Below are positions 4,126 to 28,239 of a stretch of 64,000 nt of DNA, one piece after another (within the stretch, counting starts at the first letter, position 1; every line of letters starts with the position of its first letter). Both the position numbers and the translations under genes were made by a program. The stretch covers positions 62,001-126,000 of the forward strand of contig JAJZDX010000006.1 in assembly GCA_021805865.1 (NCBI GenBank), written 5' to 3'. The stretch is from Pseudomonadota bacterium (GTDB lineage Bacteria > Pseudomonadota > Gammaproteobacteria > Steroidobacterales > Steroidobacteraceae). The notes below the pieces were generated by a model, which saw nothing but the letters and a program-made list of their open reading frames with translations, was not told where the DNA came from and made no database searches.

Positions 4126-5610
4126 TCAACTGGCCCGGACGGGCGCCTCGATGCCGCCCACGCAGACGTATTTGAGCTCAGTGTAGTCGAGAATTCCATA
4201 CTTCGAGCCTTCTCGGCCGATCCCGGACTCCTTGATTCCACCGAATGGCGCCACTTCCGTGGAGAACAGCCCAGTGTTGAGTGCCACCATCCCGTACTCG
4301 AGCGCCTCAGAGACGCGCCAGCTGCGGGCGAGGTCGCGCGTGTAGAGATAAGAGGCCAGTCCGAACTCGGTGGCATTGGCGAGCGCGATGGCCTCGGCTT
4401 CGGACGAGATTCGAAACAGCGGTGAGACCGGGCCGAAAATCTCCTCCCGTGCGAGGCGCATGTCGGCCGTAGCGTCGAGAAGGACGGTCGGCTCGAAGAA
4501 CGTGCCGCCGAGGGCGTGGCGCTTGCCGCCCGTGATGATCCTGGCTCCCTTGCCGACAGCATCCGAAACGTGCTGCTCCACTTTGCTCAACGCGTTGACA
4601 TCGATCAGCGGTCCTTGATCGGTGGGGCCGGCCAGGCCGTCGCCGACCCGCAGCTGTTCGACCGCGGCCTTGAGCTTGCGTGCGAACTCGTCGTACACGG
4701 CATCCTGGATCAGAAAGCGGTTCGGGCACACGCACGTCTGACCGGTGTTGCGGTATTTGCTCGCAATCGCGCCTTGCACGGCTGCATCGACGTCCGCATC
4801 GTCGAACACGATGAATGGCGCGTTGCCGCCGAGCTCCAGCGAGATCTTTTTCAAAGTCCCGGCGCATTGGGTCATCAGCCGCTTGCCGATGCTCGTTGAG
4901 CCGGTGAAGGTCAGCTTGCGCACCAGTGGATTTGAGCTCATCTCGCCGCCGATCACGGCCGCCTCACCCGTGAGGACATTGAACACCCCGGGCGGAACAC
5001 CGGCCCGGCCCGCGAGCTCGGCGAGCGCCAGCGCGGAATAGGGAGTTTGCAGGGCTGGCTTGCACACGAATGTACAGCCGGCGGCCAGCGCCGGGCCCGC
5101 CTTGCGGGCGATCATGGCGGAGGGGAAGTTCCACGGAGTGATCGCCGCCACGACCCCGATCGGTTGACGCAGAACGATGATGCGCTTGTCCGCGCTCTGC
5201 CCCGGGATGACATCGCCGTACACCCGCTTGGCTTCCTCGCCGAACCACTCGATGAAGGCGGCGGCAAAGGCGATCTCGCCGCGCGCCTCGACGAGCGGCT
5301 TGCCCTGCTCGGCGGTCATCAGTACCGCCAGATCGTTCTGGTGAGCCAGGAGGAGGTCGTACCAGCGCCGCAGAACAAGTGCGCGCTCCTTGGCCGAGCG
5401 GGCCGCCCACGCGGGCAGAGCGCCGGCGGCCGCCTCGATCGCCTGCCGGGTCTCGGCTGCGCCCATATCGGGTACGGTTCCCAGGTGCCCGCCGGTAGCC
5501 GGGTTATGCACAGCGACGGTCGCGCCACTCACTGCATCCTGCCAGCGGCCGCCGATCAGGCACTGTTGCCGCAGCAGTGTCGGGTCTTCGAGTCTCATGG
5601 TTTCACTCAC
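4126..5610 (-). CDS. Sulfolactaldehyde dehydrogenase (GabD-like aldehyde dehydrogenase)
   Basis: A 494-residue NAD(P)-dependent aldehyde dehydrogenase, normal length for the succinate-semialdehyde dehydrogenase (GabD) branch. The catalytic Cys is C293 in NTGQTCVCPNR, the general-base Glu is E259 in LELGGNAPF, and the oxyanion Asn is N161 in TPWNFP. In sulfo-Entner-Doudoroff clusters a GabD-type enzyme oxidises 3-sulfolactaldehyde from the aldolase to sulfolactate. The cluster context (sulfoquinovosidase, SuyAB) makes this the likely role here; the sequence alone would allow succinate semialdehyde. The listed start is GTG, with an ATG four codons downstream as an alternative. It is the last gene of a minus-strand run suyA-suyB-comC-slcC-aldehyde dehydrogenase, 43 bases after slcC. 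Confidence 0.85.
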   Translation of the reverse strand: MSETMRLEDPTLLRQQCLIGGRWQDAVSGATVAVHNPATGGHLGTVPDMGAAETRQAIEAAAGALPAWAARSAKERALVLRRWYDLLLAHQNDLAVLMTAEQGKPLVEARGEIAFAAAFIEWFGEEAKRVYGDVIPGQSADKRIIVLRQPIGVVAAITPWNFPSAMIARKAGPALAAGCTFVCKPALQTPYSALALAELAGRAGVPPGVFNVLTGEAAVIGGEMSSNPLVRKLTFTGSTSIGKRLMTQCAGTLKKISLELGGNAPFIVFDDADVDAAVQGAIASKYRNTGQTCVCPNRFLIQDAVYDEFARKLKAAVEQLRVGDGLAGPTDQGPLIDVNALSKVEQHVSDAVGKGARIITGGKRHALGGTFFEPTVLLDATADMRLAREEIFGPVSPLFRISSEAEAIALANATEFGLASYLYTRDLARSWRVSEALEYGMVALNTGLFSTEVAPFGGIKESGIGREGSKYGILDYTELKYVCVGGIEAPVRAS

Positions 5611-5653
5611 TTACTCTTGGCAGAGCAGGCGGCAGTCGCACCCCGTCGGGCGT

Positions 5654-6583
5654 TCAGCGGCCGCCAAGCGTCTCTCGAACCGCTCTCGCCACCACCTCAC
5701 TCACGCGCACGTTGGATTCCTCGGTCACGCCGGCGATGTGGGGGGTCAACAGCAAATTGGGCAGATCCGGCCAGGCGGCGCCGGTTGCCGCCGTCAGCGG
5801 CTCGCTCTCGAACACATCGAGCGCCGCGCCGCCCAGCCGCCTCGTCCGCAGCGCTTCGATCAGTGCGGCTTCATCGACCACGCCGCCGCGCGCCGCATTG
5901 ATCAGCACCGATCCGGGGCGCATCTGCGTGATCGCCGCCCCGTCGATCAGGTGTCGAGTCTTCGGGGTGAGCGGTATATGCAGGCTGACGATTTCGCTGG
6001 CGGCGAGGAGCGGCGCCAGCTCCTGGCGCTCGATGCCGTGCCACGCCTCGTCGCGCGGCTCGACGAACGGATCGTACGCGGACACCGTCATGCCCAGTGC
6101 GAGCGCTTTGCGTGCCGTCAGGCGCGCAATCGCTCCGAATCCCACCAGCCCGAGGCGTTTGCCGGCGAGCTCCCTTCCGATCAATTCCATGCGCGGCCAC
6201 TGTCCGGCGGCCACCGCCGCCGTCGCGAACCAGGCGCGCCGCAGCAGTAACATGGCGGCACAGATCACATATTCGGCGACCGCGAGATCATTGGCGCCCG
6301 TCGCCGGGCACACGCGGATGTCGCGCGCAGCGCAGGCTGCGACATCTATGTTGTCGAGACCCACCCCAAGCCGGCCGACGACGCGCAGGCCCGGAGCAGC
6401 CTCGAGCAGCGCCCCGCGCACCTGAGTGCGATTACGCACCACGAGCGCGCGGCAATCACTCAGCATTGCGTGCAGACGCTGCGGATGCTCGACGAGCTTC
6501 GGATCGTAGAGCACATCGAATTCGCCCAGGTGTTCCCGGATCGCCGCCTCGTCCATGAATTCGCTTATCACGATGTCGGTCAT
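5654..6583 (-). CDS. slcC: (S)-sulfolactate dehydrogenase, SlcC-like (D-2-hydroxyacid dehydrogenase family)
   Basis: A 309-residue NAD-dependent 2-hydroxyacid dehydrogenase of the phosphoglycerate dehydrogenase type, without a regulatory domain. The Rossmann motif is GLVGFGAIA. The catalytic Arg lies in INAARGGVVDE, the Glu in DVFESEPL and the His in LTPHIAG. In sulfolactate-degrading bacteria SlcC oxidises (S)-sulfolactate to sulfopyruvate, and ComC reduces that to the (R)-isomer used by SuyAB. All three partners are adjacent here. Its ATG overlaps the comC-like stop by 4 bases (ATGA). Family membership is certain; substrate is inferred from the neighbours. Confidence 0.85.
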   Translation of the reverse strand: MTDIVISEFMDEAAIREHLGEFDVLYDPKLVEHPQRLHAMLSDCRALVVRNRTQVRGALLEAAPGLRVVGRLGVGLDNIDVAACAARDIRVCPATGANDLAVAEYVICAAMLLLRRAWFATAAVAAGQWPRMELIGRELAGKRLGLVGFGAIARLTARKALALGMTVSAYDPFVEPRDEAWHGIERQELAPLLAASEIVSLHIPLTPKTRHLIDGAAITQMRPGSVLINAARGGVVDEAALIEALRTRRLGGAALDVFESEPLTAATGAAWPDLPNLLLTPHIAGVTEESNVRVSEVVARAVRETLGGR

Positions 6584-7596: not shown

Positions 7597-7608
7597 GAGC
7601 AGTGCGAC

Positions 7609-8784: not shown

Positions 8785-8788
8785 GATC

Positions 8789-9079
8789 TCACCAGCGCCT
8801 GGTCTTGAGGTTGTGGATATGCACGTGATCTCCACGATGGATGGGTTTGACGACTTTACCGATGTCCTGCCCGTACTTGATCACCGCTTCGCCGACCGCC
8901 AGGTCTCGCAGCGCAACCTTGTGACCGATCGGCACGTCCTGGTTGCACACGGCGCGAATTTCGCTGTTATCCTCGGTCACGACACCGAGAATGTCGGTTC
9001 CCGCGGTGAGGTTCTCGACCACGACCACGCCGACGTTGTCGCGGTGGTCGTGGACGAGTAATTGCGGATGGTTCGGCAT
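8789..9079 (-). CDS. suyA: (R)-sulfolactate sulfo-lyase, small subunit (SAF domain)
   Basis: A 96-residue SAF-domain protein, the small partner of SuyB. It carries the typical string [17 protein letters not shown] and the segment [13 protein letters not shown], followed by KYGQDIGK. The start ATG at 9079 has GAGGACC upstream. It is the first gene of the minus-strand desulfonation operon, 26 bases downstream of the GntR-type palindrome at 9105-9116, and divergent from the dehydratase gene. Fused UxaA proteins carry this domain at their N-terminus; the split arrangement is characteristic of SuyA/SuyB. Confidence 0.9.
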
Positions 9080-9104
9080 TGGGAAAGGTCCTCAGTGGCG
9101 CAGC

Positions 9105-9123
9105 TCTTATATAAGATATAAGA
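9105..9123. promoter_or_regulatory. Operator 1 of the sulfosugar regulon (bidirectional)
   Basis: TCTTATATAAGATATAAGA contains the perfect 12-bp palindrome TCTTATATAAGA (9105-9116) and a longer inverted repeat, TCTTATAT/ATATAAGA around AAG. It lies in the 53-base gap between the divergent suyA and dehydratase starts. The same palindrome occurs at two other promoters of the island, so it is the likely site of the GntR-family regulator. Confidence 0.8.
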
Positions 9124-9132: not shown

Positions 9133-10917
9133 ATGATGGCAAACACAAGATCTTCTGCCTCCCCTGCCGTGGATTCGGATGTCGCGCGGGCTTCGGGCTC
9201 GCGTACGTTGCGGAGCTCCCGGTGGTACGAGCGCGATGACATGCGCGGTTTTGCTCACCGGCAGCGTACGCAGCAGATGGGGCTGCGGCGCGAGGAATTC
9301 CTCGGCCGCCCGGTCATAGCGATCATCAATACCTGGAGCGACATGAGCCCATGTCACGCGCATCTGCGCGAGCGCGCTCAGGCGATCAAGCGCGGTGTCC
9401 TGCTCGCCGGAGGCTACCCGGTTGAATTACCGGCACTTTCGGTTGGGGAAGTCATGGTCAAGCCCTCGACCATGCTTTATCGCAATTTTCTGGCGATGGA
9501 GACCGAAGAGTTGCTGCGCTCACACCCGATTGACGGAGCGGTGCTGCTCGGGGGATGCGATAAATCAATTCCGGGAATGCTGATGGGGGCAATCAGCATG
9601 GATTTGCCGGCAATCCTGTGTCCCGCCGGACCGATGTCGAACGGGCAATGGCGCGGAGTGCCCACGGGCGCCGGAACGCACACGAAGAAGTACTGGGACG
9701 AACTGCGTGCCGGGAACATCACCTCCGATGACTGGATCGATCTGGAGTCGCGCATGACCCGATCGATCGGCACCTGCAATACCATGGGGACCGCGTCCAC
9801 CATGAGCGCCATCGCCGAGGCATTGGGGCTGACCCTGCGCGGGGCCTCCTCGATCCCGGCGGCCGATTCCGGTCACGTGCGTATGGCCTCGGAGTGCGGC
9901 TCGCGCATCGTCGCCATGGTCCAAGAGGATCTGAGGCCATCCCAAATCCTCTCGGCGGCAGCATTCAGGAACGCAGCCACGGTCTACATGGCGCTCGGCG
10001 GATCGACCAACGCCGCAATCCATCTCATCGCAATGGCCGGCCGCGCCGGCATCGGGTTGACGCTTGCCGATCTGGGCGCGATTGCCCGCGACATCCCGGT
10101 CTGCGCCAATCTGTTTCCCTCGGGCGACCGGCTCATGGAGGACTTCTATTTCGCCGGAGGTCTGCCGGCGCTGCTCGCCAAGCTCGCAGCTCGGCTCGAC
10201 CCCGATTGCCTCACGGTGGAGGGGCGGACGCTGGGTGCCGCAATAACCGGCGCACTCTGTTATGACGACACGATCATTCGCGGTCTTGACGACCCGGTGG
10301 TGCCGCTCGATCGCGGGCGTACGCTCGATGTGGTGCGCGGCAACCTCTGCCCCGATGGAGCAGTGCTCAAATCAAGCGCCGCCGATCCGCGCTTGATGCG
10401 CCACGAGGGCCCGGCGTTGGTGTTCGACTCGCACGCCGAACTCTCGGCGCGAATCGACGACCCGTCGTTGCCGGTGGACGAGAACACCGTTCTCGTGCTG
10501 CGCAACTGCGGCCCGGTCGGTGCCCCCGGCATGCCCGAGTGGGGCAATCTGCCGATCCCGCGCAAATTGCTCGCCCGGGGTGTGCGCGACATGGTGCGCA
10601 TCTGCGACGGCCGCATGAGCGGTACGCACTATGGCTGCTGCATCGTACACGCCGCGCCCGAGGCGGCCATCGGCGGCCCGCTCGCGCTCATGAAGACCGG
10701 AGATCGCGTGCGCCTGGATGTGCCGGCCGGCCGCCTGGACATGCTGGTCCCGGAGGAGGAGATCGGCGCCAGGCGCAATGCCTGGCGTCCGCCTGCCCGC
10801 GAGTATCAGCGCTCATACGCCGCGCTGTATCAAGCGCACGTCACACAGGCGCCACAAGGATGCGATTTCGACTTTCTGACCGGTTGCGCGCCAACCCCGG
10901 AACCGCCGATCTTCTGA
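9133..10917 (+). CDS. 6-deoxy-6-sulfogluconate dehydratase (IlvD/Edd family)
   Basis: A 594-residue Fe-S dehydratase of the IlvD/Edd family. Cluster cysteines are C74 (MSPCH), C142 (GGCDKS) and C215 (GTCNTMG). The DGRMSGTHYG segment provides the catalytic Ser. In sulfo-ED this enzyme dehydrates 6-deoxy-6-sulfogluconate to 2-keto-3,6-dideoxy-6-sulfogluconate. It is the first gene of a tight plus-strand operon with aldolase, mutarotase, lactonase and dehydrogenase. No clear ribosome binding site precedes ATG 9133 because the operator lies 10-28 bases upstream; translation may be nearly leaderless. Family is certain, substrate inferred from the pathway set. Confidence 0.88.
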   Translation: MMANTRSSASPAVDSDVARASGSRTLRSSRWYERDDMRGFAHRQRTQQMGLRREEFLGRPVIAIINTWSDMSPCHAHLRERAQAIKRGVLLAGGYPVELPALSVGEVMVKPSTMLYRNFLAMETEELLRSHPIDGAVLLGGCDKSIPGMLMGAISMDLPAILCPAGPMSNGQWRGVPTGAGTHTKKYWDELRAGNITSDDWIDLESRMTRSIGTCNTMGTASTMSAIAEALGLTLRGASSIPAADSGHVRMASECGSRIVAMVQEDLRPSQILSAAAFRNAATVYMALGGSTNAAIHLIAMAGRAGIGLTLADLGAIARDIPVCANLFPSGDRLMEDFYFAGGLPALLAKLAARLDPDCLTVEGRTLGAAITGALCYDDTIIRGLDDPVVPLDRGRTLDVVRGNLCPDGAVLKSSAADPRLMRHEGPALVFDSHAELSARIDDPSLPVDENTVLVLRNCGPVGAPGMPEWGNLPIPRKLLARGVRDMVRICDGRMSGTHYGCCIVHAAPEAAIGGPLALMKTGDRVRLDVPAGRLDMLVPEEEIGARRNAWRPPAREYQRSYAALYQAHVTQAPQGCDFDFLTGCAPTPEPPIF

Positions 10918-14260: not shown

Positions 14261-14980
14261 TCAGGTGAGTGTGATGGCGTACACCAGGTTGTCGGAGCGC
14301 ACGCGGCTCAGGCGCCATTCGGCCTTGCGCTCCGGCAGGCAGACGGCGATGCGGTCGATGACGAGAATCGGTGAGCCGGTGGCGACGCCGATCTGGCGAT
14401 GATCATCGATGGTCGCGAGCTGGGCGCTCAATTCCTCGTGTGTGGTCATGATCGTGACGCCGAACTTCGCCTGATAGAGCGAGTACAGGCTGTTCGGCAG
14501 GGCGCCTATCTTCTCGATCCCGGGATACAGATCCGCCGGCAGCGCAATGATCTCGCGGATTGCCGGAACCCCCTCGAGCAGCCGGACGCGGTCGATCTCG
14601 ACGACGCGCGCATCCCGGCCGAGATCGAGCCGCTCGCGCTCCGGCGGGCGTGCGGCCCGCACCCGGATCGTTTCGCTGCCGAGAGTCGGCGTGAGGCGCT
14701 TGCCGCCAGGGTGCGCCAAGCGAAAGAAGCGGAATTGAGCCCGCTCCTGGGTGTTTTCGGCGATGAAGGTGCCTTTGCCCTGATGACGCTCGAGGACTTT
14801 CTCCGCCGTCAGCGCATCGAATACTTTGCGAACGGTTCCCTGGCTGACCCCAAGCTCTTTGGCAAGATTCAACTCGCTCGGCAGCGCCTCCCCGGGCCGC
14901 CATTCGCCCTGCGCCAAGCGACGCACGACGATCTCGTAGACCTGCCGATACAAGGGGCGGAAGCCGGGAGTCTCGTTCAC
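14261..14980 (-). CDS. GntR-family (HutC/UTRA) repressor of the sulfosugar island
   Basis: A 239-residue GntR-family regulator. The N-terminal winged helix (residues about 8-75) has LPSELNLAKELGVSQGTVRK and GKGTFIAE. The C-terminal UTRA effector domain is of the HutC type (LPADLYPGIEKI ... GSPILVIDRIA). SQ-responsive regulators of other sulfoglycolytic clusters include both DeoR (CsqR) and GntR types. It is divergent from the GH31 gene with the shared TCTTATATAAGA palindrome between them, implying autoregulation. The effector (SQ, SQ-glycerol or sulfolactate) cannot be read from sequence. Confidence 0.85.
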   Translation of the reverse strand: MNETPGFRPLYRQVYEIVVRRLAQGEWRPGEALPSELNLAKELGVSQGTVRKVFDALTAEKVLERHQGKGTFIAENTQERAQFRFFRLAHPGGKRLTPTLGSETIRVRAARPPERERLDLGRDARVVEIDRVRLLEGVPAIREIIALPADLYPGIEKIGALPNSLYSLYQAKFGVTIMTTHEELSAQLATIDDHRQIGVATGSPILVIDRIAVCLPERKAEWRLSRVRSDNLVYAITLT

Positions 14981-15112: not shown

Positions 15113-15131
15113 TCTTATATAAGATACAAGT
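15113..15131. promoter_or_regulatory. Operator 2 of the sulfosugar regulon (gntR/GH31 promoter)
   Basis: TCTTATATAAGATACAAGT contains the perfect palindrome TCTTATATAAGA at 15113-15124, identical to operators 1 and 3, with one or two changes in the flanking half-site. It is 24 bases before the GH31 start and 132 bases before the gntR start. Confidence 0.8.
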
Positions 15132-15147: not shown

Positions 15148-17166
15148 ATGAAGATTACTGAGTTCTCCGATGGCTTTGATCTGATGCTGGACGGCCGGCT
15201 GCTGCTGCGCCACCGAAGGGAGGCGCCTTGCCTGTTCGTCGGTACGGGAGAGGCGGATTACCGGATGAGCCGGGGTCATTTCCAGATCGAGGACTACGTA
15301 AGCGCACGCAGGCCTCTTGGCCACGGGGAGGTGCGCCGTGAGAATTCGGGCGTGCGTGTCCTCCTCTCCGAGTCGTCCGGCCTGCCCCCGGTGCTCGAGA
15401 TCGTGGCGAGCGGTGGGAACGGGCGCGCGACACTCAAGCTCGTGAGCCATGAGCCGCGGGTGAATCGCCTGTGGCTGCGGATCGCCGCCGAGGAAGGCGA
15501 GCGCATCTGGGGTGGCGGCGAGCAGTTGTCGTATTTCGACCTTCGTGGCCGGCGCTTTCCGTTATGGACATCCGAGCCCGGCGTGGGGCGCGACAAGTCG
15601 ACGCTTGTCACCTTCCAGGCGGATCGGGCCGGCGGCTCGGGGGGAGATTACTTCACCACCAACTACCCTCAGCCCACCTACCTTTCCTCGCGCCGATATG
15701 CGCTGCACGTGGACACGACCGCATTCACGGCGTTCGATTTCCGGCATGGCGCCTTCCACGAGATCGAGGCGTGGGGCATACCGCGGCGGATCGAGCTCTG
15801 GGCCGCTGAGCGCTTCACCGCTCTCGTGAGCGCGCTGTCGTCCCATTTCGGGCGCCAGCCGCCGCTGCCGGAGTGGGTTCGCTCGGGCGCGATCATCGGG
15901 TTGAAGGAGGGGGAACGCAGCTTCGAGCGTCTGGAGCGTTTTGCGGCCGCCGGAGCGGCCATTTCGGGCCTGTGGTGCGAGGACTGGGTGGGAGTCCGTG
16001 AGACGTCCTTCGGCACGCGACTCTTTTGGGATTGGAAATGGAATGCCCGGCGCTATCCGGGGCTCGATCGGCGCATCGCGGCGCTGCACGCGCGGGGCAT
16101 ACGTTTTTTAGGGTACGTCAACCCCTACCTGTGCGTCGATGGCTCGCTCTATCCGCACGCCGCGGCCGCGGGTCTGCTCGTCAGACGGCTCGATCGGGAC
16201 GAGCCCTACTTGGTCGATTTCGGTGAGTTCACCTGCGGCATGGTGGATTTCACGCGCCCGGAAGCGCTCGTGTGGTTCGAGGAAGAGGTCATCGGTCGAA
16301 ATCTCATCGACTTCGGCCTATCGGGCTGGATGGCCGATTTCGGCGAGTACCTTCCGGTCGACGTGCGGCTCGCTTCCGGAGAGGACGGTGCGTTGGCCCA
16401 CAATGCCTGGCCGGTGCTTTGGGCGCGGGTCAACGCCGAGGCGGTCGCCCGCCGCGGCAAAACCGGCGAGATGCTGTTTTTCATGCGCGCCGGATTCTCA
16501 GGCGTTCAGCGCCACTGCCCGCTGCTCTGGGGCGGCGATCAATCGGTGGACTTCAGCCGCCACGACGGGCTGCAGACGGTCATCTGCGCCGCGCTGTCTT
16601 CCGGGTTGCTCGGCAACGCGTATCATCACAGCGACATAGGCGGCTACACCAGCCTGTTCGGCAATGTTCGCACAGCGGAACTGCTGCAACGCTGGGCGGA
16701 GATGGCCGTCTTCACCGCGGTCATGCGCTCGCACGAAGGCAATCGGCCGCGCGAGAACTTGCAGATCGACGAGGACCCGGAGGTGCTCGCGCATTTCGCG
16801 CGGATGACACGCATGCACCGGCATCTCGCGCCTTATCTGCGCGCGCTCGGCGCCGAGGCCGCCGCGACCGGCTTGCCGTTGCAACGACCCTTGTTCCTGC
16901 ATTTCGAGGATGACCGGGACCTCTACGGGGAGCAGACGAGTTATCTCCTTGGCACGGACCTCCTCATCGCTCCAGTCATCGAGGCCGGCGCGCAACGGCG
17001 CCGTGCCTACCTTCCCGCAGGCGCCCGCTGGCGGCATCTCTGGAGCGGCAAGGAGTGGCCGGGAGGCGCCGAGGCCGAGGTCGAGGCGCCGATCGGGCGG
17101 CCGCCCGTGTTTGTCCGGGACGGCAGCCCGCACGCAGCGCTCTTTGCCGGACTCGCAGGCTGCTGA
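15148..17166 (+). CDS. yihQ: Sulfoquinovosidase (GH31, YihQ-like)
   Basis: A 672-residue GH31 glycosidase. Predicted nucleophile D397 (WMADFGE) and acid/base D464 (WGGDQ). The sulfonate-binding residues known from E. coli YihQ (R301, W304, Y508) have counterparts R291 and W294 in RLFW and Y500 in DIGGY. The offset from YihQ is a constant 10 then 8 residues, matching also D405 and D472. This marks an SQ-glycoside hydrolase rather than an ordinary alpha-glucosidase. No signal peptide, so cytoplasmic: it should release SQ plus glycerol from imported SQ-glycerol. The glpD gene starts immediately after its stop, consistent with glycerol as a co-product. Confidence 0.92.
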   Translation: MKITEFSDGFDLMLDGRLLLRHRREAPCLFVGTGEADYRMSRGHFQIEDYVSARRPLGHGEVRRENSGVRVLLSESSGLPPVLEIVASGGNGRATLKLVSHEPRVNRLWLRIAAEEGERIWGGGEQLSYFDLRGRRFPLWTSEPGVGRDKSTLVTFQADRAGGSGGDYFTTNYPQPTYLSSRRYALHVDTTAFTAFDFRHGAFHEIEAWGIPRRIELWAAERFTALVSALSSHFGRQPPLPEWVRSGAIIGLKEGERSFERLERFAAAGAAISGLWCEDWVGVRETSFGTRLFWDWKWNARRYPGLDRRIAALHARGIRFLGYVNPYLCVDGSLYPHAAAAGLLVRRLDRDEPYLVDFGEFTCGMVDFTRPEALVWFEEEVIGRNLIDFGLSGWMADFGEYLPVDVRLASGEDGALAHNAWPVLWARVNAEAVARRGKTGEMLFFMRAGFSGVQRHCPLLWGGDQSVDFSRHDGLQTVICAALSSGLLGNAYHHSDIGGYTSLFGNVRTAELLQRWAEMAVFTAVMRSHEGNRPRENLQIDEDPEVLAHFARMTRMHRHLAPYLRALGAEAAATGLPLQRPLFLHFEDDRDLYGEQTSYLLGTDLLIAPVIEAGAQRRRAYLPAGARWRHLWSGKEWPGGAEAEVEAPIGRPPVFVRDGSPHAALFAGLAGC

Positions 17167-18762
17167 ATGCCGATCCGCGGCGCCAATCCCGGGGTCGAGG
17201 GGGACCGGCGCGCCGCGGGCTCGCTCGATCTCGTGGTGATCGGCGGTGGCATCAATGGTGTCGGAATAGCGCGCGATGCGGCAGGGCAGGGGCTCAAGGT
17301 GCTGCTCCTCGAGCGGTCTGACCTCGCCGGGGCAACTTCCTCGGCTTCCTCGAAGTTGATTCACGGCGGACTGCGGTATCTCGAGCAGCTGGAATTTCGC
17401 CTGGTGCGTGAAAGCCTCAGGGAGCGCGAGGTGCTTTGGGCGGCGGCGCCCCACATCATCAGGCCGCTACGATTCGTGCTGCCTGTCCGTGCCGGGCTGC
17501 GCAGCACCTGGGCGTTGCGTGCGGGCCTCTTCCTCTACGACCACATCGGGGGACGCAAGAAATTGCCTTCCACGGGCGTGCTGCGGCGCGGTCGCGATGC
17601 GGCATTCGCTGCGCTTCAGGAGAGCTACCACCTCGCATTCGAATACTCGGACTGCTGGGCTGACGACGCGCGGCTGGTGGTCCTCAACGCGCTCGATGCG
17701 CACGAGCGAGGCGCAACGATTGCCGTTGGCTGCAGTTTCGTGGGGGCGCGGCGAGAGTCGGGCTTGTGGAGCATCGAGGTCGAGTCGCAAGGCGGTAAGC
17801 GAAGCACGCTCCACGCGCGGGCGCTCGTGAATGCCGCCGGGCCATGGGTCGAGAAGGTTCTCGCAGGAGCGGGCGTTCCACGACGCAGCGCGCTGCGGCT
17901 GGTCAAGGGAAGCCACATCGTCGTGCCGCGGCTCTATGCCGGCGAGCATGCGTACACACTTCAAAGCCTCGACGGACGTGTGATCTTCACGATCCCGTTC
18001 CAGAAACGATTCACTCTGATCGGTACAACCGATGTTCCGTGCGCTGGCGAGCCTCTGCCGGCCAGTGTGAGCGCCGAGGAAATCGATTACCTCTGCCGCG
18101 CGGTCGCGGACTATCTTCGCGCTCCAATTACACCGGAACATGTCGTATGGCAATACGCCGGCGTGCGTCCACTTTACGACAATGGCGAGGTGAGCGCATC
18201 GACCGTAACCCGCGATTATGTCTTCGATCTCGATGCGCCGGAGCATGCTGCGCCGCTGCTCTCGGTGTTCGGTGGCAAGCTGACCACCTACCGCCGGCTC
18301 GCCGAGCATGCGCTTTCGGAGGTGCTTCCGCGTCTGGGCATCAGCGCCCGCCGCTGGACGAGGGCCGCGCCCTTGCCTGGAGGGGATCTGCCGGGACGGG
18401 ACCTCGAGGCATTCACAGGCGAGCAGCTCGCTCGCTATGCGTTTGCGCCGGCGGCAATGGTGCGGCGCATGTGCGCGGCGTACGGCACGCGGACCGAGCG
18501 AGTTTTGGGCGGTGTACGCCGCCTGTCCGACCTCGGCGCGGAGATTGCTCCCCAGCTCTTCGAGACCGAGCTCCAGTATCTGCGCAGCGCCGAGTGGGCG
18601 CGCTGCGCCGAGGATGTGCTGTGGCGTCGCTCAAAGCTCGGCCTGTCCCTCGGGCCCGAGTCCGCCGCGTGCCTCGATCGCTGGTTTGCGGCAGATCGTG
18701 TGCCGCGCGGCGATGAGATCAGCCTGTCCTTACGCGCTGGAGCGCAGCATGCCACCCGTTGA
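17167..18762 (+). CDS. glpD: Aerobic glycerol-3-phosphate dehydrogenase (FAD)
   Basis: A 531-residue FAD protein. The N-terminal dinucleotide motif is VVIGGGINGVGIARDAAGQG (residues about 20-40), followed by SSKLIHGGLRYLE, diagnostic of GlpD. The C-terminal segment FGGKLTTYRRLAEHAL is also typical. It oxidises glycerol-3-phosphate to dihydroxyacetone phosphate and passes electrons to quinone. ATG directly abuts the sulfoquinovosidase stop, so it is co-transcribed with it. The 3' end overlaps the convergent glpK gene by 44 bases. Its presence here fits use of the glycerol part of sulfolipid head groups. Confidence 0.92.
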   Translation: MPIRGANPGVEGDRRAAGSLDLVVIGGGINGVGIARDAAGQGLKVLLLERSDLAGATSSASSKLIHGGLRYLEQLEFRLVRESLREREVLWAAAPHIIRPLRFVLPVRAGLRSTWALRAGLFLYDHIGGRKKLPSTGVLRRGRDAAFAALQESYHLAFEYSDCWADDARLVVLNALDAHERGATIAVGCSFVGARRESGLWSIEVESQGGKRSTLHARALVNAAGPWVEKVLAGAGVPRRSALRLVKGSHIVVPRLYAGEHAYTLQSLDGRVIFTIPFQKRFTLIGTTDVPCAGEPLPASVSAEEIDYLCRAVADYLRAPITPEHVVWQYAGVRPLYDNGEVSASTVTRDYVFDLDAPEHAAPLLSVFGGKLTTYRRLAEHALSEVLPRLGISARRWTRAAPLPGGDLPGRDLEAFTGEQLARYAFAPAAMVRRMCAAYGTRTERVLGGVRRLSDLGAEIAPQLFETELQYLRSAEWARCAEDVLWRRSKLGLSLGPESAACLDRWFAADRVPRGDEISLSLRAGAQHATR

Positions 18763-20363: not shown

Positions 20364-21614
20364 GTGAATAGCGCCGAACCCCTCGCTACATCCGCCGCCG
20401 TCTCGTCGCAGGGACGCACGGTGCTGCTCGTGCTGCTTGCCTTTGTCGGAGTGATCAACTACGCCGACCTCCAGTCCATCGCGATCCTCAAGCCGCTCAT
20501 CGAGCGCAGCATCGGCTGGTCCGATGCCGATTATGGCCGCGTCGTGGCCATGTTCCAGCTGGCGACGGCGCTGTCGTACCTGTGGGCCGGCGCCGTAGTC
20601 GATCGCCTCGGGGTCAAGCGCTCGATTCCCGTCGCCGTCACCTCCTTCAGCATTGCCGACGCCGCGCATGCGCTGGCGCGCACCACCGGAGGGTTCATGC
20701 TGGCCCGAATCGGGCTCGGCGCCAGCGAATCTCTCACCACTCCCGCGATCATTCAGGCAACCGGCGCGTACTTCGAGCCCGATCGGCGCGCACGCATGCT
20801 CGGCTTGATCAATTCGGCAAACAGCCTCGGGGCCATCATCACGCCGCTGGTCATCCCGACGGTGGCGCTCACCGTCGGGTGGCGGGCCGCCTTCGTGCTG
20901 CTGGGAATCGCCGGCTTCCTCTGGACAACCGTCTGGATCGTGACGCTGCGCGGCAGCCGGCTCTCGCAGCGGGGCGTCGCGCCCGCGCCGAGGTCGACTC
21001 CGCAGGGTTATCTGCGGCTGCTCAAGGAGCGCCGCACGTGGGCGATCATCGTTGGCAAGGCGCTCGCCGATCAGGTCTGGTGGCTGTTGCTCTACTGGAC
21101 TCCCGCTTTCCTGCATCGCACCTTTCACCTGTCGATACGCGCCTACGGCGGGCCGTTGGCCGTGATGTATGGCGGCTCGATGCTCGGCTCCATTGTCGGC
21201 GGCTGGGCGTCCTCCCGGCTGGTCTCGCGGGGCATGGGTGCCGTGGCCGCGCGTCTGGCCGTCATGCTCGCCTGCTCCGTGATCGGCTTGGCGCTGTTCG
21301 GAGTGCCGCACGCCGGCGGCGTATGGGCCGCGGTCGCAATGCTCACGATCGGCATTGCCGCCATGCAGGGGTTTTCGGTGAACATGTTCACCCTCATCAC
21401 CGATGTGATCGAGGGCGAGCGAGTCGGGACCGTCACGAGCCTCGGCGCCTTCGCCGGCAACATCGCCGGCATGGCCGTCGTGTGGCTGTGCGGTGTGCAC
21501 TTGGCCTCGGGCGGCGGCTACGCTCCGTTTTTCGATTTCGCAGCGGTATCGTTCGCCCTGGCGCTCGCGTGGTTGCGGCTGGTGATGCCGCAAGCCTACC
21601 TCAGGGGTGCATAG
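20364..21614 (+). CDS. MFS transporter, probable SQ or SQ-glycoside importer
   Basis: A 416-residue, about 12-TM major facilitator superfamily protein, similar in style to the anion:cation symporter branch that carries hexuronates and sugar acids. Conserved loop 2-3 motif GAVVDRLGVKRS follows TM2, and ARIGLGASESLTTPAI lies in TM4. I chose GTG 20364 because the upstream in-frame ATG (20148) would run into the glpK coding region and the 5' glpK leader. Anionic substrate preference is only plausible from family and context. The stop lies 1 base before the next gene's likely GTG start. Confidence 0.75.
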   Translation: MNSAEPLATSAAVSSQGRTVLLVLLAFVGVINYADLQSIAILKPLIERSIGWSDADYGRVVAMFQLATALSYLWAGAVVDRLGVKRSIPVAVTSFSIADAAHALARTTGGFMLARIGLGASESLTTPAIIQATGAYFEPDRRARMLGLINSANSLGAIITPLVIPTVALTVGWRAAFVLLGIAGFLWTTVWIVTLRGSRLSQRGVAPAPRSTPQGYLRLLKERRTWAIIVGKALADQVWWLLLYWTPAFLHRTFHLSIRAYGGPLAVMYGGSMLGSIVGGWASSRLVSRGMGAVAARLAVMLACSVIGLALFGVPHAGGVWAAVAMLTIGIAAMQGFSVNMFTLITDVIEGERVGTVTSLGAFAGNIAGMAVVWLCGVHLASGGGYAPFFDFAAVSFALALAWLRLVMPQAYLRGA

Positions 21615-22677: not shown

Positions 22678-23469
22678 ATGAGACATGTGCATGCCTCCGT
22701 TGCCGCCCTTGCTGTGCTGTGCACTCTTCCGGCATTGGCCGTGACGCGGCCATGGCCGCCGAGGCAACCCTGGCCCCCCAATGACATGAGCCGGCCACAG
22801 CCTCCGCGGATGCATGTTTCGACGGCGATCCTCGGATTGCCCCCGCCGCCTGATGCGGTAGTGCTCTTCGACGGTCATGGCCTCGGGCAGTGGAATCTCG
22901 CCGCCGATCCGCAGGGCGGCTGGCATCAGTCGCATGGCTTGATGCTGCCGGGCGGAAAAGTCTTCAACTGGCTGTTCACGAAGCGCAAGTTCGGCAGCGT
23001 GCAGGTGCACCTTGAGTTCCGCGAACCCTATCCCGCCCGTGGAGCGGGCCAGGAGCGGGGCAACAGCGGCGTTCGGCTGATGGGTGTGTACGAGATACAG
23101 ATCCTCAACGCCAATCACGACCATACGTACGCCGACGGCGTGGCCGGGGCGGTCTATGGCCAGACACCGCCGCTCGTGCTGCCGGTGATGCCCTCCGATA
23201 AGTGGCAGAGCCTCGATATCATTTTCAATGCGCCGCGCTTTCGGGGCAAGACGCTGCTGAGGCCGCCGCACGTGACGGTGCTGCTAGATGGTGTCGTGGT
23301 GCAGGATCACCAGCTGATCTACGGCAACACGAGCGCGGACAAGACCCCGCTCGGATTCGTGACCCACGCCGAGCGCGGACCGATCGGTGTGCAGGACCAC
23401 GGCCAGCCGACCTCGATCGTGGCGTTCCGTAACATCTGGGTCCGTCCGCTGCGCCGCCATGGCCACTGA
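22678..23469 (+). CDS. Secreted DUF1080 protein, probable 3-keto-glycoside hydrolase
   Basis: A 263-residue protein starting at ATG 22678 (GAGGAAG 9 bases upstream) with a Sec signal peptide in residues about 1-21 (VAALAVLCTLPALA). The rest is a DUF1080/3-keto-disaccharide hydrolase jelly-roll domain: VVLFDGHGLGQWN, FGSVQVHLEFREP, ERGNSGVRLMGVYEIQIL and PIGVQDHG. Characterised DUF1080 proteins cleave 3-keto-glycosides made by glucoside 3-dehydrogenases. Periplasmic location contrasts with the cytoplasmic GH31 enzyme. Its 3' end overlaps the GMC gene by 11 bases, so they are coupled. The sulfosugar substrate is an inference from island context. Confidence 0.78.
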   Translation: MRHVHASVAALAVLCTLPALAVTRPWPPRQPWPPNDMSRPQPPRMHVSTAILGLPPPPDAVVLFDGHGLGQWNLAADPQGGWHQSHGLMLPGGKVFNWLFTKRKFGSVQVHLEFREPYPARGAGQERGNSGVRLMGVYEIQILNANHDHTYADGVAGAVYGQTPPLVLPVMPSDKWQSLDIIFNAPRFRGKTLLRPPHVTVLLDGVVVQDHQLIYGNTSADKTPLGFVTHAERGPIGVQDHGQPTSIVAFRNIWVRPLRRHGH

Positions 23470-25168
23470 ACCGTTCGATGTCATCATCGTGGGGTCGGGC
23501 GCCGCGGGAGCGACCGCCGCGTATGTCCTCACGAGCCTGGGTGCGCGCGTTTGCCTGCTCGAGGCCGGACGCTACTACGATCCGGGGCGGGAGACGCCCA
23601 TGTTTCAGCGCCATGGTGCAGCGCCTCTGGCCGATGCCGGCACGCCCGACAAACCGTTCGGCTTTTACGATGGCACCGTGGACGGCGGGTGGATCCTGCC
23701 CGAGGAGCCCTATGCCACCGCGCCGGGCACGGAATTCCGTTGGTTCCGGGCGCGCATGCTCGGCGGGCGGACCAATCACTGGGGGCGGGTCGCGCTGCGC
23801 TACGCGAATCACGACTTCAAAGCCTACTCGCTCGATGGATTGGGCGCCGATTGGCCGTTCACCTACGACGAGTTCGCGCCTTGGTACGATCGCGCGGAGC
23901 GCATGGTGGGCGTGTTCGGCACGAACGAGCACCTGCCGGACATCCCCGACTCTCCGCCGGGATGCCTGCAGCCTCCGCCCGTGCCGCGCTCGTACGAACG
24001 GCTGGTGATCGCGGGCGGCCACCGACTCGGCCGGCCGGTGGTCGCAAGCCACGAAGCAGTCATTACGCAGCCGCTGAACGGCCGGCTGGCTTGCTTTTAC
24101 GCCTCGCCCTGCCTGCGCGGCTGCGCGATCCGGGCGAACTTCCAATCCCCGACCGTGATGTTGCCCCCGGCACGGGCGAGCGGACGCTTGACGACGATCA
24201 CTCACGCGCAAGTCTACGAGGTGGACCTGGCACCCGACGGCTCGGCCCGGGGCGTGCATTACGTCGATCGACTCACCCACCGGCATCACTACCTGGCGGG
24301 CCGCGCCGTGATGCTGGGGGCGAGCGCCATGGAATCGGTGCGGATTCTGTTCAACTCCCGCAGCGCGCGCTTTCCGGACGGCATCGGCGCCGAGAGTGGT
24401 CTGCTCGGACGCGGGGTTCTGGATACACCGGGCAGCAATGTGTGGGGGCAGTTCCCGCAGATGGAGGGACTCCCGCCGTTCAACGACGACGGCGTCGTCT
24501 CGCTGCCGCATATCTTCATCCCTTGGTGGTTGTGGCCCGCGCAGCGCGCCGGGCGGCTGCCGTTCGCGCGCGGCTACCATATCGAGCTTTACGGCGGACG
24601 GACCGAGCCCTCGGCGTACACGTTCGATCAGTTCGATGTGGTCTCGCCGCTGACCTACGGCAAACGGCTCAAAGAGGAGGCGCGCCGCTACTACGGCAGC
24701 TTCGTGCGCTTCTCGCAGCGCGGTGAGATGATCATGCGCGACAGCAATCGGGTCGTGATCGACCCGCAGATGAAGGATGCGTGGGGCGTCCCGGGGCTGT
24801 GCTTCGATGTGCGCTGGAGCGAGCAGGAGCTGCGCCAGACCGCTCATGCGCAGCTCAGCATGGCGGAATTCATCGAGGCCTCGGGCGGAAAGCTTATAAC
24901 CCCGCTGCCGGGCAACCCCGCGCAGGCTATCACGCCTCCCGGACGCATGATCCACGAGGTGGGGGGCGCCCGCGCCGGCTCTGACCCGAAGAAGTCGGTG
25001 ACCGATTCCCACGGCCGAGTCTGGGGAGTGCCCAATCTGTACGTGATCGACGGGGCGGTGTTTCCGAGCAGCGCAAACAAGAATCCCACCTTGACCATCA
25101 TCGCTTTCGCCTGGCGCGCCAGCGAGCATCTGCGCAAGTATCTGCGTAAGGAGTTGCGTCATGCCTGA
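23459..25168 (+). CDS. GMC-family FAD sugar dehydrogenase, glucoside 3-dehydrogenase-like catalytic subunit
   Basis: A 569-residue GMC oxidoreductase. ADP-binding motif VIIVGSGAAGATAA near residue 8, a cysteine-rich segment CFYASPCLRGCAIRANF where bacterial FAD sugar dehydrogenases bind an Fe-S cluster, and a C-terminal active-site region with FPSSANKNPTLTI. It lacks its own signal peptide; the small subunit encoded immediately downstream has a Tat signal, the usual hitch-hiker arrangement for export. Periplasmic oxidation of a glycoside at C3 is the likely reaction. The start ATG 23459 is chosen by the family N-terminus; upstream in-frame codons lie inside DUF1080. Confidence 0.83.
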   Translation: MATEPFDVIIVGSGAAGATAAYVLTSLGARVCLLEAGRYYDPGRETPMFQRHGAAPLADAGTPDKPFGFYDGTVDGGWILPEEPYATAPGTEFRWFRARMLGGRTNHWGRVALRYANHDFKAYSLDGLGADWPFTYDEFAPWYDRAERMVGVFGTNEHLPDIPDSPPGCLQPPPVPRSYERLVIAGGHRLGRPVVASHEAVITQPLNGRLACFYASPCLRGCAIRANFQSPTVMLPPARASGRLTTITHAQVYEVDLAPDGSARGVHYVDRLTHRHHYLAGRAVMLGASAMESVRILFNSRSARFPDGIGAESGLLGRGVLDTPGSNVWGQFPQMEGLPPFNDDGVVSLPHIFIPWWLWPAQRAGRLPFARGYHIELYGGRTEPSAYTFDQFDVVSPLTYGKRLKEEARRYYGSFVRFSQRGEMIMRDSNRVVIDPQMKDAWGVPGLCFDVRWSEQELRQTAHAQLSMAEFIEASGGKLITPLPGNPAQAITPPGRMIHEVGGARAGSDPKKSVTDSHGRVWGVPNLYVIDGAVFPSSANKNPTLTIIAFAWRASEHLRKYLRKELRHA

Positions 25169-25802: not shown

Positions 25803-25862
25803 GCCGCCGCGCCCGGCGACTGGCTGCGCCCGCCGGAACGGGCGTTGCGGGTTGCATTTTTA

Positions 25863-25881
25863 TCTTATATCTTATATAAGA
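25863..25881. promoter_or_regulatory. Operator 3 of the sulfosugar regulon (receptor promoter)
   Basis: TCTTATATCTTATATAAGA ends in the same 12-bp palindrome TCTTATATAAGA (25870-25881). On the minus strand it reads TCTTATATAAGATATAAGA, identical over 19 bases to operator 1. It lies 31 bases before the TonB-dependent receptor ATG. Confidence 0.8.
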
Positions 25882-25911
25882 CATGTGAGATAACGTTTCG
25901 AGGGGGATTCC

Positions 25912-28239
25912 ATGAGGCTCATTCGCGCTGGACTATTGCTCGTCCCGGCCGCATTTCTTTCCCTGTCCTGTCTTGCCCAGGCGGCTGCGGCGAAGACCAC
26001 CCAAAATGCCGACCCGACGGCACAGCTGGCCGAAATCATCGTCACGGCCGAAAAGCGCCATCAGCCTCTGCTCGAGGTCCCGGCCTCTGTCACCGTGGTA
26101 ACGGGCTCGACCCTGAAGAGCGCCGGCATCGACAGCGCGGAAAGCCTGCAGAAGCTGGTGCCAACCCTTACATTCGAGCGTGGCAACACAAATTCGAACG
26201 CCACCCTGGCGATACGCGGAATCGGCACGCAGTCGTTCTCTCCCGCCGCGCAACCCAGCGTCGCGGTCCTGGTCGACGGGGTCGTCATGGGCCGCCCGGG
26301 CATGGCATTCAGCGCCTTTACGGATATCAGCCGCATCGAGGTCCTGAACGGACCGCAAGGCACGCTGTACGGCATGAATGCAACGGCCGGCGCTATCAAC
26401 ATCGTTACGCCGGACCCGACCCGCCGTTTCGAGGGGCATGCGAGCGTTTCGTGGTACGAGGGGCAGGAATATCACGCCAGGCTCGATCTCTCCGGCCCCA
26501 TGAGCCATCATATCGGCTATCAGCTCTCGGCAATCTATGAGGACTTCCCCGGAAACATATACAACGTATACAACGACAAGCAGACGAACGGATACCGTCG
26601 CGAGGGGCTGCGCGGAAAGATCGTCGATGACATCGACAGCTCGCTCAAAGTGACCTTCGAGGGAAACTATTACCACTCCAATGACAATTGTTGCGCCGAC
26701 GTGCTGGGCGGCTATGTCCCGAACGCAGCCTGGACGAACGTGTTTCTGCCCGAGCTGAAGCCCTCCGTTCCGGGGCCGAACGCGCTCAGCATAAATAACG
26801 ACACCATTCCCAGCCAGATCAACACAAACGCGGGCGTGTCGGCGACGGTTCAATGGCGCCTCGCGCATGACACTCTGACTTCGATTTCCGCATTCCAGCG
26901 CTGGTATAACTTCCAGGGACGGGACGGCGATTTCCACGCGGGATGCTGCAGCTATGTCACACCGCTAGATATCAAGATGCATGACCGCGGCGGCCTGGAT
27001 TACAAGCAATACAGCGAGGAGATCCGCCTTTCGTCCCCGACGAATCAATTCGCCAGCTATACGGTTGGCGCATTCTTCTGGCATACCGACGAACAGGACT
27101 ACTTCATTCGGCATGTTGAGCAGTGCACGGCATCCACTCTGCCCGCCAATTACACCGGCTTCCAGCCTTGCGGGCTGGGCTTCAGCACGTACCTCAATAC
27201 GCGCGGGATTGCGCATTTCGATACGCGAAATGACAGTCAGGCGCTGTTCGGGCAGACGACGCTCCACATCACCCGGCGTCTCAGTCTGATCGCCGGCGGG
27301 CGGTACAGTCACGATTACGTCGCGTACTCCTTTGCGCGAAAGGATCTGCCGACGACGGGACCTGGAATCGGCTCGGGCTATGTTGGCGCAGGAAATACCG
27401 CCAACAACGGCTGGTCCGCGAAAGGCGGCGCCCGGTACAAGATCACCCGGAATTCAGTGGCGTACGCCACCTATAGCCGGGGATGGCTGGGGCCGGCATA
27501 CAATGTGTTCTTCAACATGTCGGCGCTCAACGCCGCTCCGGTCGCGCCCGAGACATCCAATGACTATGAGCTCGGCCTGAAGAACAATCTGTTCGACGAT
27601 AAATTGGTCTTGAATCTCTCCGCCTGGTACGAGACGTTTTATAACTTTCAGGCAAACAGCTTCGTGGTGACAAACGGCGCGGTGACGACAAGCCTTACCA
27701 ACGCCGGCATAGTGCGCTCTCAGGGTGCATCGGTCGACTTCGACTGGCAGCCGACGGACAGTCTGAGCATCACCGGGGGTTACGCGTACGACAAGGCGTA
27801 TATCGTGTCCTACACGTGCGCCGGGCAGACGGGTGCCGCCTTGCAAGGCTGCCGCAGCTCACATGACGGCGAAATGTTTCCGTTCGCGCCCGAGAACAAG
27901 CTCACCATCACGCCCAGCTGGCTGTTGCCGCTGCACGACGCTTCGTTCACGGCCCGCCTCAATATGAGCTACTCGTACACCAGTCACACGAACTTCGACA
28001 TCGATCCGAATCCAATGGCGCAGCAGCCGGCGTATTCGCTCCTGGGCGCGTCGCTCGATCTCGGATTTGATAATGGCAAGTATCATGTGAGTTTCATCGG
28101 GCACAATCTGACCAATCAGTTCTACACCGTGTTCATCACTCCGACGGGGAACGGGGTCTCGCCGGGCTCGTACCAGCGTCTGCAGGTTCCGCGCGATGCG
28201 TTCCGTTATTGGGGAGTGCGGTTCTCGGCCAACTTCTGA
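25912..28239 (+). CDS. TonB-dependent outer-membrane receptor of the sulfosugar island
   Basis: A 775-residue TonB-dependent receptor. Signal peptide in residues 1-28, TonB-box-like LAEIIVTAEKR near residue 38, plug domain about residues 48-165 (LAIRGIGT, VLVDGVVMGR, NGPQGTLYGMNATAGAINI), then a beta-barrel ending in aromatic RFSANF. Good GAGGGGG ribosome binding site. It is driven by its own operator-containing promoter and followed by a hairpin. It should bring a sulfolipid-derived ligand across the outer membrane. Such receptors normally take larger ligands, so SQ-glycerol itself or a bigger sulfolipid fragment are both possible. Confidence 0.9.
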   Translation: MRLIRAGLLLVPAAFLSLSCLAQAAAAKTTQNADPTAQLAEIIVTAEKRHQPLLEVPASVTVVTGSTLKSAGIDSAESLQKLVPTLTFERGNTNSNATLAIRGIGTQSFSPAAQPSVAVLVDGVVMGRPGMAFSAFTDISRIEVLNGPQGTLYGMNATAGAINIVTPDPTRRFEGHASVSWYEGQEYHARLDLSGPMSHHIGYQLSAIYEDFPGNIYNVYNDKQTNGYRREGLRGKIVDDIDSSLKVTFEGNYYHSNDNCCADVLGGYVPNAAWTNVFLPELKPSVPGPNALSINNDTIPSQINTNAGVSATVQWRLAHDTLTSISAFQRWYNFQGRDGDFHAGCCSYVTPLDIKMHDRGGLDYKQYSEEIRLSSPTNQFASYTVGAFFWHTDEQDYFIRHVEQCTASTLPANYTGFQPCGLGFSTYLNTRGIAHFDTRNDSQALFGQTTLHITRRLSLIAGGRYSHDYVAYSFARKDLPTTGPGIGSGYVGAGNTANNGWSAKGGARYKITRNSVAYATYSRGWLGPAYNVFFNMSALNAAPVAPETSNDYELGLKNNLFDDKLVLNLSAWYETFYNFQANSFVVTNGAVTTSLTNAGIVRSQGASVDFDWQPTDSLSITGGYAYDKAYIVSYTCAGQTGAALQGCRSSHDGEMFPFAPENKLTITPSWLLPLHDASFTARLNMSYSYTSHTNFDIDPNPMAQQPAYSLLGASLDLGFDNGKYHVSFIGHNLTNQFYTVFITPTGNGVSPGSYQRLQVPRDAFRYWGVRFSANF

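Follow-up and report, generated by a model that had tools for sequence, protein, structure and literature searches.

Can a single bacterium carry sulfoquinovose (SQ) from its glycosides down to pyruvate and sulfite? The question is raised by a 24-kb gene cluster in a stretch of 64,000 nucleotides (the window; positions 62,001 to 126,000 of contig JAJZDX010000006.1, assembly GCA_021805865.1) from a Steroidobacteraceae bacterium; coordinates below count from the first letter of the window. A preliminary description had proposed that a sulfo-Entner-Doudoroff (sulfo-ED) pathway and full desulfonation take place in the same cell, and the sequence supports this: the GH31 glycosidase and the SDR are of SQ type, the dehydratase belongs to PF00920, the sulfo-lyase subunit SuyB is 77% identical to its closest reference, and a putative operator lies between the two halves. 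The locus very probably constitutes a self-contained regulon with which one cell would degrade SQ, free or as its glycerol glycoside, to two pyruvates and sulfite.

Scans with Pfam, NCBIfam and open reading frames (ORFs) place two divergent gene runs, which meet near 9.1 kb. Leftward from this point lie suyA, suyB, a comC-like gene, an slcC-like gene and an aldehyde dehydrogenase (ALDH) gene, and rightward an IlvD/Edd dehydratase, an HpcH/HpaI aldolase, a mutarotase, an SMP-30 lactonase and the SDR. Beyond the SDR come, in order, a GntR gene (minus strand), GH31, glpD, glpK (minus strand), an MFS transporter, Gfo/Idh, DUF1080, GMC and subunit-3-like genes and a TonB receptor. The scans confirmed all five sulfo-ED families, GH31, the mutarotase and the split SuyA/SuyB of the preliminary description; of its two 2-hydroxyacid dehydrogenases both genes are present, but one belongs to the Ldh_2 (ComC) family. 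It had not listed the GntR, glpD/glpK, the MFS transporter, the 3-keto-glycoside genes or the operator sites. Gene order is conserved in four congeners, in G028 up to the contig end (G- and L-codes denote relatives' genomes and fetched stretches respectively, and G000 the 4.68-Mb source genome of the window). Since this order is conserved and core genes are common to 18 linked loci, the gene assembly is not a matter of chance. The features, with predicted functions, are:

4126..5610, minus strand: ALDH, proposed sulfolactaldehyde dehydrogenase (SLADH/GabD type); PF00171, 1e-165
5654..6583, minus strand: SlcC-like (S)-sulfolactate dehydrogenase, D-2-hydroxyacid dehydrogenase family; PF02826
6580..7596, minus strand: ComC-like (R)-sulfolactate dehydrogenase, Ldh_2 family; PF02615
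7609..8781, minus strand: SuyB, (R)-sulfolactate sulfo-lyase large subunit; PF04295, PF20629
8789..9079, minus strand: SuyA small subunit, a separate ORF of 96 aa; N-terminal part of TIGR03248 (galactarate dehydratase model)
9105..9116, no strand: palindrome TCTTATATAAGA, putative operator in the shared suyA/dehydratase promoter; 26 bp to the SuyA start, 17 bp to the dehydratase start
9133..10917, plus strand: sulfogluconate (SG) dehydratase (IlvD/Edd); PF00920
10934..11731, plus strand: 2-keto-3,6-dideoxy-6-sulfogluconate (KDSG) aldolase (HpcH/HpaI); PF03328
11735..12625, plus strand: SQ mutarotase (aldose-1-epimerase family); PF01263
12622..13491, plus strand: sulfogluconolactonase (SMP-30); PF08450
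13488..14255, plus strand: SQ 1-dehydrogenase (SDR); PF13561, best PDB match 9gwu
14261..14980, minus strand: GntR (HutC-type) regulator, proposed locus controller; NCBIfam GntR models
15113..15124, no strand: palindrome, putative operator before GH31; 24 bp to the GH31 start, 133 bp to the GntR start
15148..17166, plus strand: GH31 sulfoquinovosidase; 5ohy (YihQ) and NF007746, scores in the text
17167..18762, plus strand: glycerol-3-phosphate dehydrogenase GlpD; NF008899, 693 bits
18719..20203, minus strand: glycerol kinase GlpK; TIGR01311, over its cut-off
20364..21614, plus strand: MFS transporter, GTG start read off the sequence; PF07690
21607..22626, plus strand: Gfo/Idh/MocA oxidoreductase, proposed 3-keto-sugar reductase; PF01408
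22627..23469, plus strand: DUF1080 3-keto-glycoside hydrolase, N-terminus signal-peptide-like by eye; PF06439, 5.9e-33
23387..25168, plus strand: GMC oxidoreductase, proposed glycoside 3-dehydrogenase catalytic subunit, true start likely near 23459; PF05199
25161..25802, plus strand: gluconate-2-dehydrogenase subunit-3-like partner, N-terminus Tat-like by eye; PF13618
25870..25881, no strand: palindrome, putative operator before the TonB receptor; 31 bp to the receptor start
25912..28239, plus strand: TonB-dependent outer-membrane receptor, proposed SQ-glycoside uptake; PF00593, PF07715

The GH31 protein, the residues of the SDR and the type of dehydratase together point to SQ as the substrate. 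Indeed, the GH31 protein aligns over nearly its whole length with the solved sulfoquinovosidase-family chain 5ohy (YihQ) at 965 bits, is nearest to the solved sulfoquinovosidases and exceeds the NF007746 family cut-off (905 versus 553 bits); among 17 genomes searched in the genus, counting that of the window, this cut-off is passed in 5, the same five that have the cluster. For the SDR, the best solved relative is the SQ 1-dehydrogenase (SQDH) 9gwu of P. putida with 291 bits, followed by two structures at 219 and 206 bits. PMC12133307 describes four catalytic and five SQ-contact residues of this enzyme, among which Arg152 binds the sulfonate; with numbering matched to that paper by alignment, the SDR has all nine (D99, R101, N119, S147, R152, R154, Y160, K164 and Q198), and in the alignments the next two structures carry Leu and Gln in place of Arg152. 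The lactonase, dehydratase and aldolase all lie within the cluster by Pfam, and the dehydratase belongs to PF00920, the family given by PMC12421959 as the mark separating SQ from sulfofucose pathways. That a non-sulfonated sugar or sulfofucose is degraded instead seems highly improbable: the dehydratase and aldolase families are common to sugar-acid pathways, but the GH31 and the SQDH are of SQ type, and the dehydratase of the sulfofucose pathway belongs to PF13378/PF02746 according to PMC12421959. Arabinonate, galactonate and sulfofucose were each considered as substrate and rejected on the glycosidase, the SQDH and the dehydratase type.

Degradation of SQ would begin with import of the substrate by the TonB receptor and the MFS transporter; transport, like the substrates of the single enzymes, we infer from gene families and context. 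GH31 would then free SQ, and the glycerol would be consumed by GlpK and GlpD. SQDH, lactonase, dehydratase and aldolase would yield pyruvate and sulfolactaldehyde, from which the ALDH would form (S)-sulfolactate. SlcC and ComC would convert the latter to (R)-sulfolactate through sulfopyruvate, and SuyAB would cleave its C-S bond. Finally, a HutC-type GntR of the suyAB kind would act on TCTTATATAAGA at three promoters, coupling both halves.

The desulfonation half has close counterparts at suyAB loci of other bacteria. Besides the 77% shared with Methylobacterium, SuyB is 75% identical to the protein of Paracoccus and 66% to that of Cupriavidus pinatubonensis, each reference adjoining a SuyA, and the window SuyA is 68% identical to that of Paracoccus. 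The split suyA and suyB genes of the window are flanked by the SlcC-like and ComC-like genes, and sulfo-lyase activity is predicted. Hydroxyacid dehydrogenases encoded next to SuyAB share 65% (Methylobacterium) and 59% (Paracoccus) identity with the SlcC-like protein, and the ComC-like protein is 55% and 48% identical to Ldh genes adjoining SuyAB; the top NCBIfam model of the latter is NF040650, L-sulfolactate dehydrogenase, with 188.6 bits and thus under the cut-off of 500. Relatives of SlcC and ComC are encoded at both the Methylobacterium and the Paracoccus loci, together with an annotated sulfate exporter and, at the former, a TauE-type gene; the Cupriavidus locus has hpsN and hpsO in place of this SlcC/ComC/exporter set.

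What seems to connect the two halves is the palindrome. Its exact form occurs three times in the 4.68 Mb of G000, each time in the locus, namely between suyA and the dehydratase gene, before GH31 and before the TonB receptor, and a reversed-pattern control gave no match. Allowing up to two mismatches, the window still holds only these three sites, a number reached in 0 of 100 shuffles (mean 0.07). The divergent suyA/dehydratase promoter measures 53 bp, with one palindrome serving both genes. Three sites each are also present in G005, G010, G023, G110, where they fall inside the cluster, and in G060 and G028, where they are distributed over two and three contigs respectively at the same promoters. 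The other five linked genomes (those with SuyB inside the sulfo-ED locus) have two sites (G111), one each (G112, G113, G114) and three (AAP38, G115), the last with two sites between suyA and the dehydratase and the third about 11.6 kb off. Within the genus, 23 genomes were scanned, counting that of the window itself: three sites each were found in G000, G005 and G010, one in G009 and none in the other 19. Outside the family, 13 genomes of the same order gave one site in each of two.

The same site is found where suyAB stands alone. With at most one mismatch it lies 21-142 bp before suyA in all ten stand-alone suyAB Alphaproteobacteria genomes fetched and before suyA in two of three plasmid loci (Methylobacterium and Paracoccus), that is, at 12 of 13 stand-alone loci; the Cupriavidus plasmid locus shows only a two-mismatch palindrome near suyA. 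A GntR of 40-49% identity is present in eight of the ten stretches, adjoining except in L137, and in both of these plasmid loci, the Methylobacterium protein being 49% identical to that of the window. As a control, 59 sulfo-ED loci without SuyB (1.17 Mb) contain no exact site, three with one mismatch and two more with two mismatches, and at least one exact palindrome is found in 17 of the remaining 21 sulfo-ED loci.

Does the local GntR bind this site? It is unlikely that the palindrome belongs to a different regulator, for example an SdhR. In favour of such a regulator, SdhR is itself of the HutC subfamily and is reported to use a site containing the same 12 bases, TCTTATATAAGA (PMC4494728); two of the ten stand-alone genomes (L133 and L139) show no GntR in the stretch, and in L137 the GntR does not adjoin suyA. 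Nevertheless, G000 has no further exact palindrome, a genome search with the window GntR found no second full-length homologue in G000, and site and GntR occur together at 10 of the 12 site-bearing stand-alone loci. Most simply, a GntR regulator from the sulfolactate side would have come along with suyAB, and the putative operator would have spread to the sulfo-ED, sulfoquinovosidase and receptor promoters. Because the same site precedes suyA at stand-alone suyAB loci, mostly with a related GntR, the sulfolactate regulon seems to have captured SQ catabolism. For the GntR, the direction of regulation and the effector are likewise what we infer. Together, operator and GntR form a well-supported regulatory addition to the predicted pathway.

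How widely the two halves are joined was assessed by an SQDH alignment scan of one genome per species over 84,980 species, from which the best 80 of 262 loci were taken. SuyB lies inside 18 of these 80 (L023, L025, L026, L028-L039 and L041-L043), a count that covers only the nearest SQDH relatives; the contigs of L025 and L028 are those of congeners G010 and G023. SuyA, SuyB, SDR, dehydratase, aldolase and mutarotase are present in all 18, ComC and SMP-30 in 17 each and SlcC in 15. Three further loci (L024, L027, L040) stop at contig edges; SuyB was found elsewhere in the genomes of L024 and L027 and was not found in that of L040. The other 59 loci (L044-L102, Alphaproteobacteria by title) are without SuyB. 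In the SDR tree, linkage amounts to one change (20 linked, 62 not, leaving out L024, L027 and L040 and counting for L007 the SuyB on its next stretch L008), with a Shimodaira-Hasegawa-like approximate likelihood ratio support of only 84 for the clade holding all linked loci in this quick tree. Moreover, the SuyB tree separates the 21 linked sequences as one clade from 13 others with a support of 98/98. The carriers are metagenome-assembled genomes (MAGs) of Gammaproteobacteria or Proteobacteria, of Caulobacteraceae and of a Niveispirillum, together with AAP38, and this span suggests that the assembled unit moved between lineages.

These distributions also bear on whether the two halves work separately, the sulfo-ED part excreting sulfolactate and the SuyAB set serving only sulfolactate from outside, so that their proximity would be one of convenience. 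Sulfo-ED and SuyB do occur apart, in 10 of the 47 genomes searched among the 59 unlinked Alphaproteobacteria loci, and the congener G009 keeps SuyAB, ComC, GntR, SMP-30 and glpDK without an SG dehydratase match or a sulfoquinovosidase over the cut-off. Against this, the 53-bp divergent promoter holds one operator, the suy and sulfo-ED genes run in the same direction in L043 and L039 (divergently in the others), the SDR and SuyB trees partition as described, and the TauE-type gene that stands beside rhizobial sulfo-ED genes is not in the window locus. Hence, we consider independent halves quite improbable and favour the coupled pathway.

The G009 locus is spread over two stretches (L165:12900-15000 and L166:104-5387), with suyA, suyB, a comC-like gene, SMP-30 (58%), GntR, glpD, glpK and one operator, located 23 bp before its suyA; no SG dehydratase match was obtained at 1e-150. 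This locus may have lost its sugar half. A sulfofucose variant was considered for G009 and rejected, the ten neighbouring ORFs scanned being of other families or without match. In Paracoccus seriniphilus, an araD-type dehydratase lies about 8.5 kb from plasmid SuyAB, SlcC and ComC; it was set aside as a further linked case, there being no further sulfo-ED gene among the annotated genes of the plasmid (from a gene table stated to be incomplete, and without a search of L131 with proteins of the window). Five Jiella and Aurantimonas stretches (L045, L046, L048, L065, L076) contain SQDH and GH31 with no dehydratase or aldolase match in the stretch, and perhaps represent another pathway variant; SuyB is encoded elsewhere in their genomes, and a one-mismatch palindrome occurs in L045, L048 and L065. 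In Chelativorans petroleitrophicus (genome of L047), a second exact palindrome precedes an aldolase-lactonase pair beside suyAB and GntR (L134:11361-13164). Since PMC12421959 counts this species among tandem sulfofucose candidates, this may be a second instance in which a sulfosugar pathway became part of such a regulon. PhyH-type (PF05721) dioxygenase genes lie near three linked clusters (L036:17379-18317, L039:10639-11685, L043:13000-14025).

A number of observations weigh against a complete and jointly controlled SQ pathway. Within the stretches fetched, several of which end at a contig edge, GntR is found in 14 of the 18 linked loci (4 without) and GH31 in 11 (7 without); that of AAP38, L041, lacks both GH31 and glpDK. 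An ALDH homologue is present in 6; as the other 12 show none in the fetched stretch, some by contig end, the step from sulfolactaldehyde may depend there on an enzyme whose gene lies elsewhere. The reversed control pattern matched once in AAP38 and in none of the other 11 genomes, and the MFS and 3-keto genes are without an operator of their own in the window. Concerning the substrate, the E. coli control genome fails the NF007746 cut-off, which may therefore be strict. The window dehydratase exceeds the cut-off of NF009559, L-arabinonate dehydratase, by 1.6 bits, so that its fine specificity rests on context. Furthermore, the ALDH is at least as near to succinate semialdehyde dehydrogenase (SSADH) as to SLADH, with 735 bits for the E. 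coli SSADH 3jz4 and 632 bits for 8c54, which we take to be the RlGabD SLADH, listed in the database as succinate semialdehyde dehydrogenase. Counterparts of RlGabD Arg171, Arg289, Cys295 and Cys297 are present, the Arg pair being that proposed for sulfolactaldehyde dehydrogenase in PMC10599462; given that E. coli GabD shows the same residues in the alignment, they do not separate SLADH from SSADH. By themselves, the dehydratase and the ALDH would not decide the substrate.

The fate of sulfite is a further such point. No sulfite exporter or sulfite dehydrogenase was recognised within the locus (SoeABC-type enzymes were not searched for), a genome search found PF03601 absent from G000, the sole PF00174 protein of G000, encoded at 34.6-36.1 kb, is MsrP-like, and G000 has four TauE-family matches (two of them in one frame), all on other contigs that lack an exact operator. 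In L041 a PF03601 protein adjoins SlcC, and this family is annotated as putative sulfate exporter beside suyAB elsewhere. The PF00174 protein and an adjoining membrane protein (33802-36109) form an MsrP/MsrQ-like pair by eye, and cytochrome bd oxidase subunits I and II are encoded at 45038-47788.

Could the locus hold a second way of opening SQ glycosides? The Gfo/Idh, DUF1080, GMC and subunit-3-like genes overlap or abut one another and the MFS gene. Top PDB matches of the Gfo/Idh protein include sugar 3-ketoreductase and glucose-fructose oxidoreductase, and those of the GMC protein glucose and fructose dehydrogenase. The GMC subunit, small subunit and DUF1080 hydrolase occur together, as a LacABC-type route needs, LacA being a GMC protein and LacC a subunit-3-like protein; a third (cytochrome) dehydrogenase subunit gene was not found between 20.2 and 28.2 kb. 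Of the eight loci in the SDR clade of the window, six contain the module (the window itself, G005, G023, G028, L023, and L026, whose stretch ends inside GMC), and G010 lacks it. L024 keeps two short Gfo/Idh remnants between MFS and TonB, and because only these remain, loss of the module is likely there. None of the 15 loci L029-L043 showed the module. L023 has an uninterrupted run that starts with GH31, passes through glpD and MFS and reaches the subunit-3-like gene, with one operator ahead; in the window the opposite-strand glpK breaks this run. As a speculative and rather doubtful possibility, the module might open SQ glycosides oxidatively besides GH31, through periplasmic C3 oxidation of sulfoquinovosyl glycerol, cleavage by DUF1080, MFS import of 3-keto-SQ and its reduction to SQ by Gfo/Idh. 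If true, this would give SQ catabolism a new entry route that is combined with TonB-dependent uptake and belongs to a regulon with a sulfolactate-derived switch. The Gfo/Idh protein was also considered as a GH188 NAD-dependent sulfoquinovosidase and rejected: the SqgA structures given in PMC10755693 (8QC2, 8QC3, 8QC5, 8QC6, 8QC8) are not named among the 43 PDB sequences matched with E up to 1e-10.

The breakdown of SQ to pyruvate and sulfite, usually described as split between two species, appears to be encoded here in one cluster, and the linked loci, with one inferred origin of linkage, join both halves mostly under the same operator. The locus set would be a clear example of an upstream pathway brought under the control of a downstream regulator, and TCTTATATAAGA offers a 12-bp signature for finding further members. 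AAP38, presumably a cultured strain, is the sole record of the 18 not labelled MAG, which makes single-species SQ mineralisation directly testable. In the open-licence literature (subscription papers and preprints being outside this scope) no publication on a sulfo-ED locus for SQ that includes SuyAB came to light, and we recognised by title no paper on SQ uptake by a TonB receptor nor one on a suy operator. As far as the passages available go, a 2026 review and survey (PMC12890257, PMC13372026) let sulfo-ED end in an exported C3 sulfonate, and PMC12421959 calls both halves in one bacterium 'unusual' and cites a Klebsiella in which about 10% of the sulfur of SQ emerged as sulfate, through a mechanism given as unresolved.

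How does the locus compare with known systems? With known sulfo-ED systems it shares the SDR, lactonase, PF00920 dehydratase, PF03328 aldolase, ALDH and GH31, and the order dehydratase-aldolase-lactonase-SDR-GH31 is the same as on Shinella and Microvirga plasmids. Whereas known sulfo-ED exports sulfolactate, as stated in PMC12890257, the window locus contains SuyAB, SlcC and ComC; its regulator is of the suy-linked GntR kind, and its uptake looks TonB/MFS rather than ATP-binding cassette (ABC) based. The tandem sulfofucolytic-sulfolactate sulfolyase pathway of Paracoccus wurundjeri likewise combines an ED-type half with SlcC/ComC/SuyAB in one cluster and has sulfite as product, but it acts on sulfofucose with another dehydratase family, its sulfolactaldehyde dehydrogenase is given as not identified, no glycosidase is reported and uptake is by ABC transporter (PMC12421959); in its main text, as far as available, the words GntR, regulator and operator are absent. 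Extended sulfo-transaldolase clusters with SuyAB in Thermotogae and Chloroflexi also represent an SQ pathway with SuyAB in the cluster, for which passages of PMC9594981 propose complete carbon use, and differ from the window in their transaldolase chemistry and phyla. Finally, the LacABC and DUF1080 route of Caulobacter, as outlined in PMC9007349, resembles the 3-keto module in having dehydrogenase genes near a DUF1080 hydrolase thought to be periplasmic; unlike it, the module of the window has no cytochrome subunit gene in its run and is set between the MFS and TonB genes of an SQ locus.

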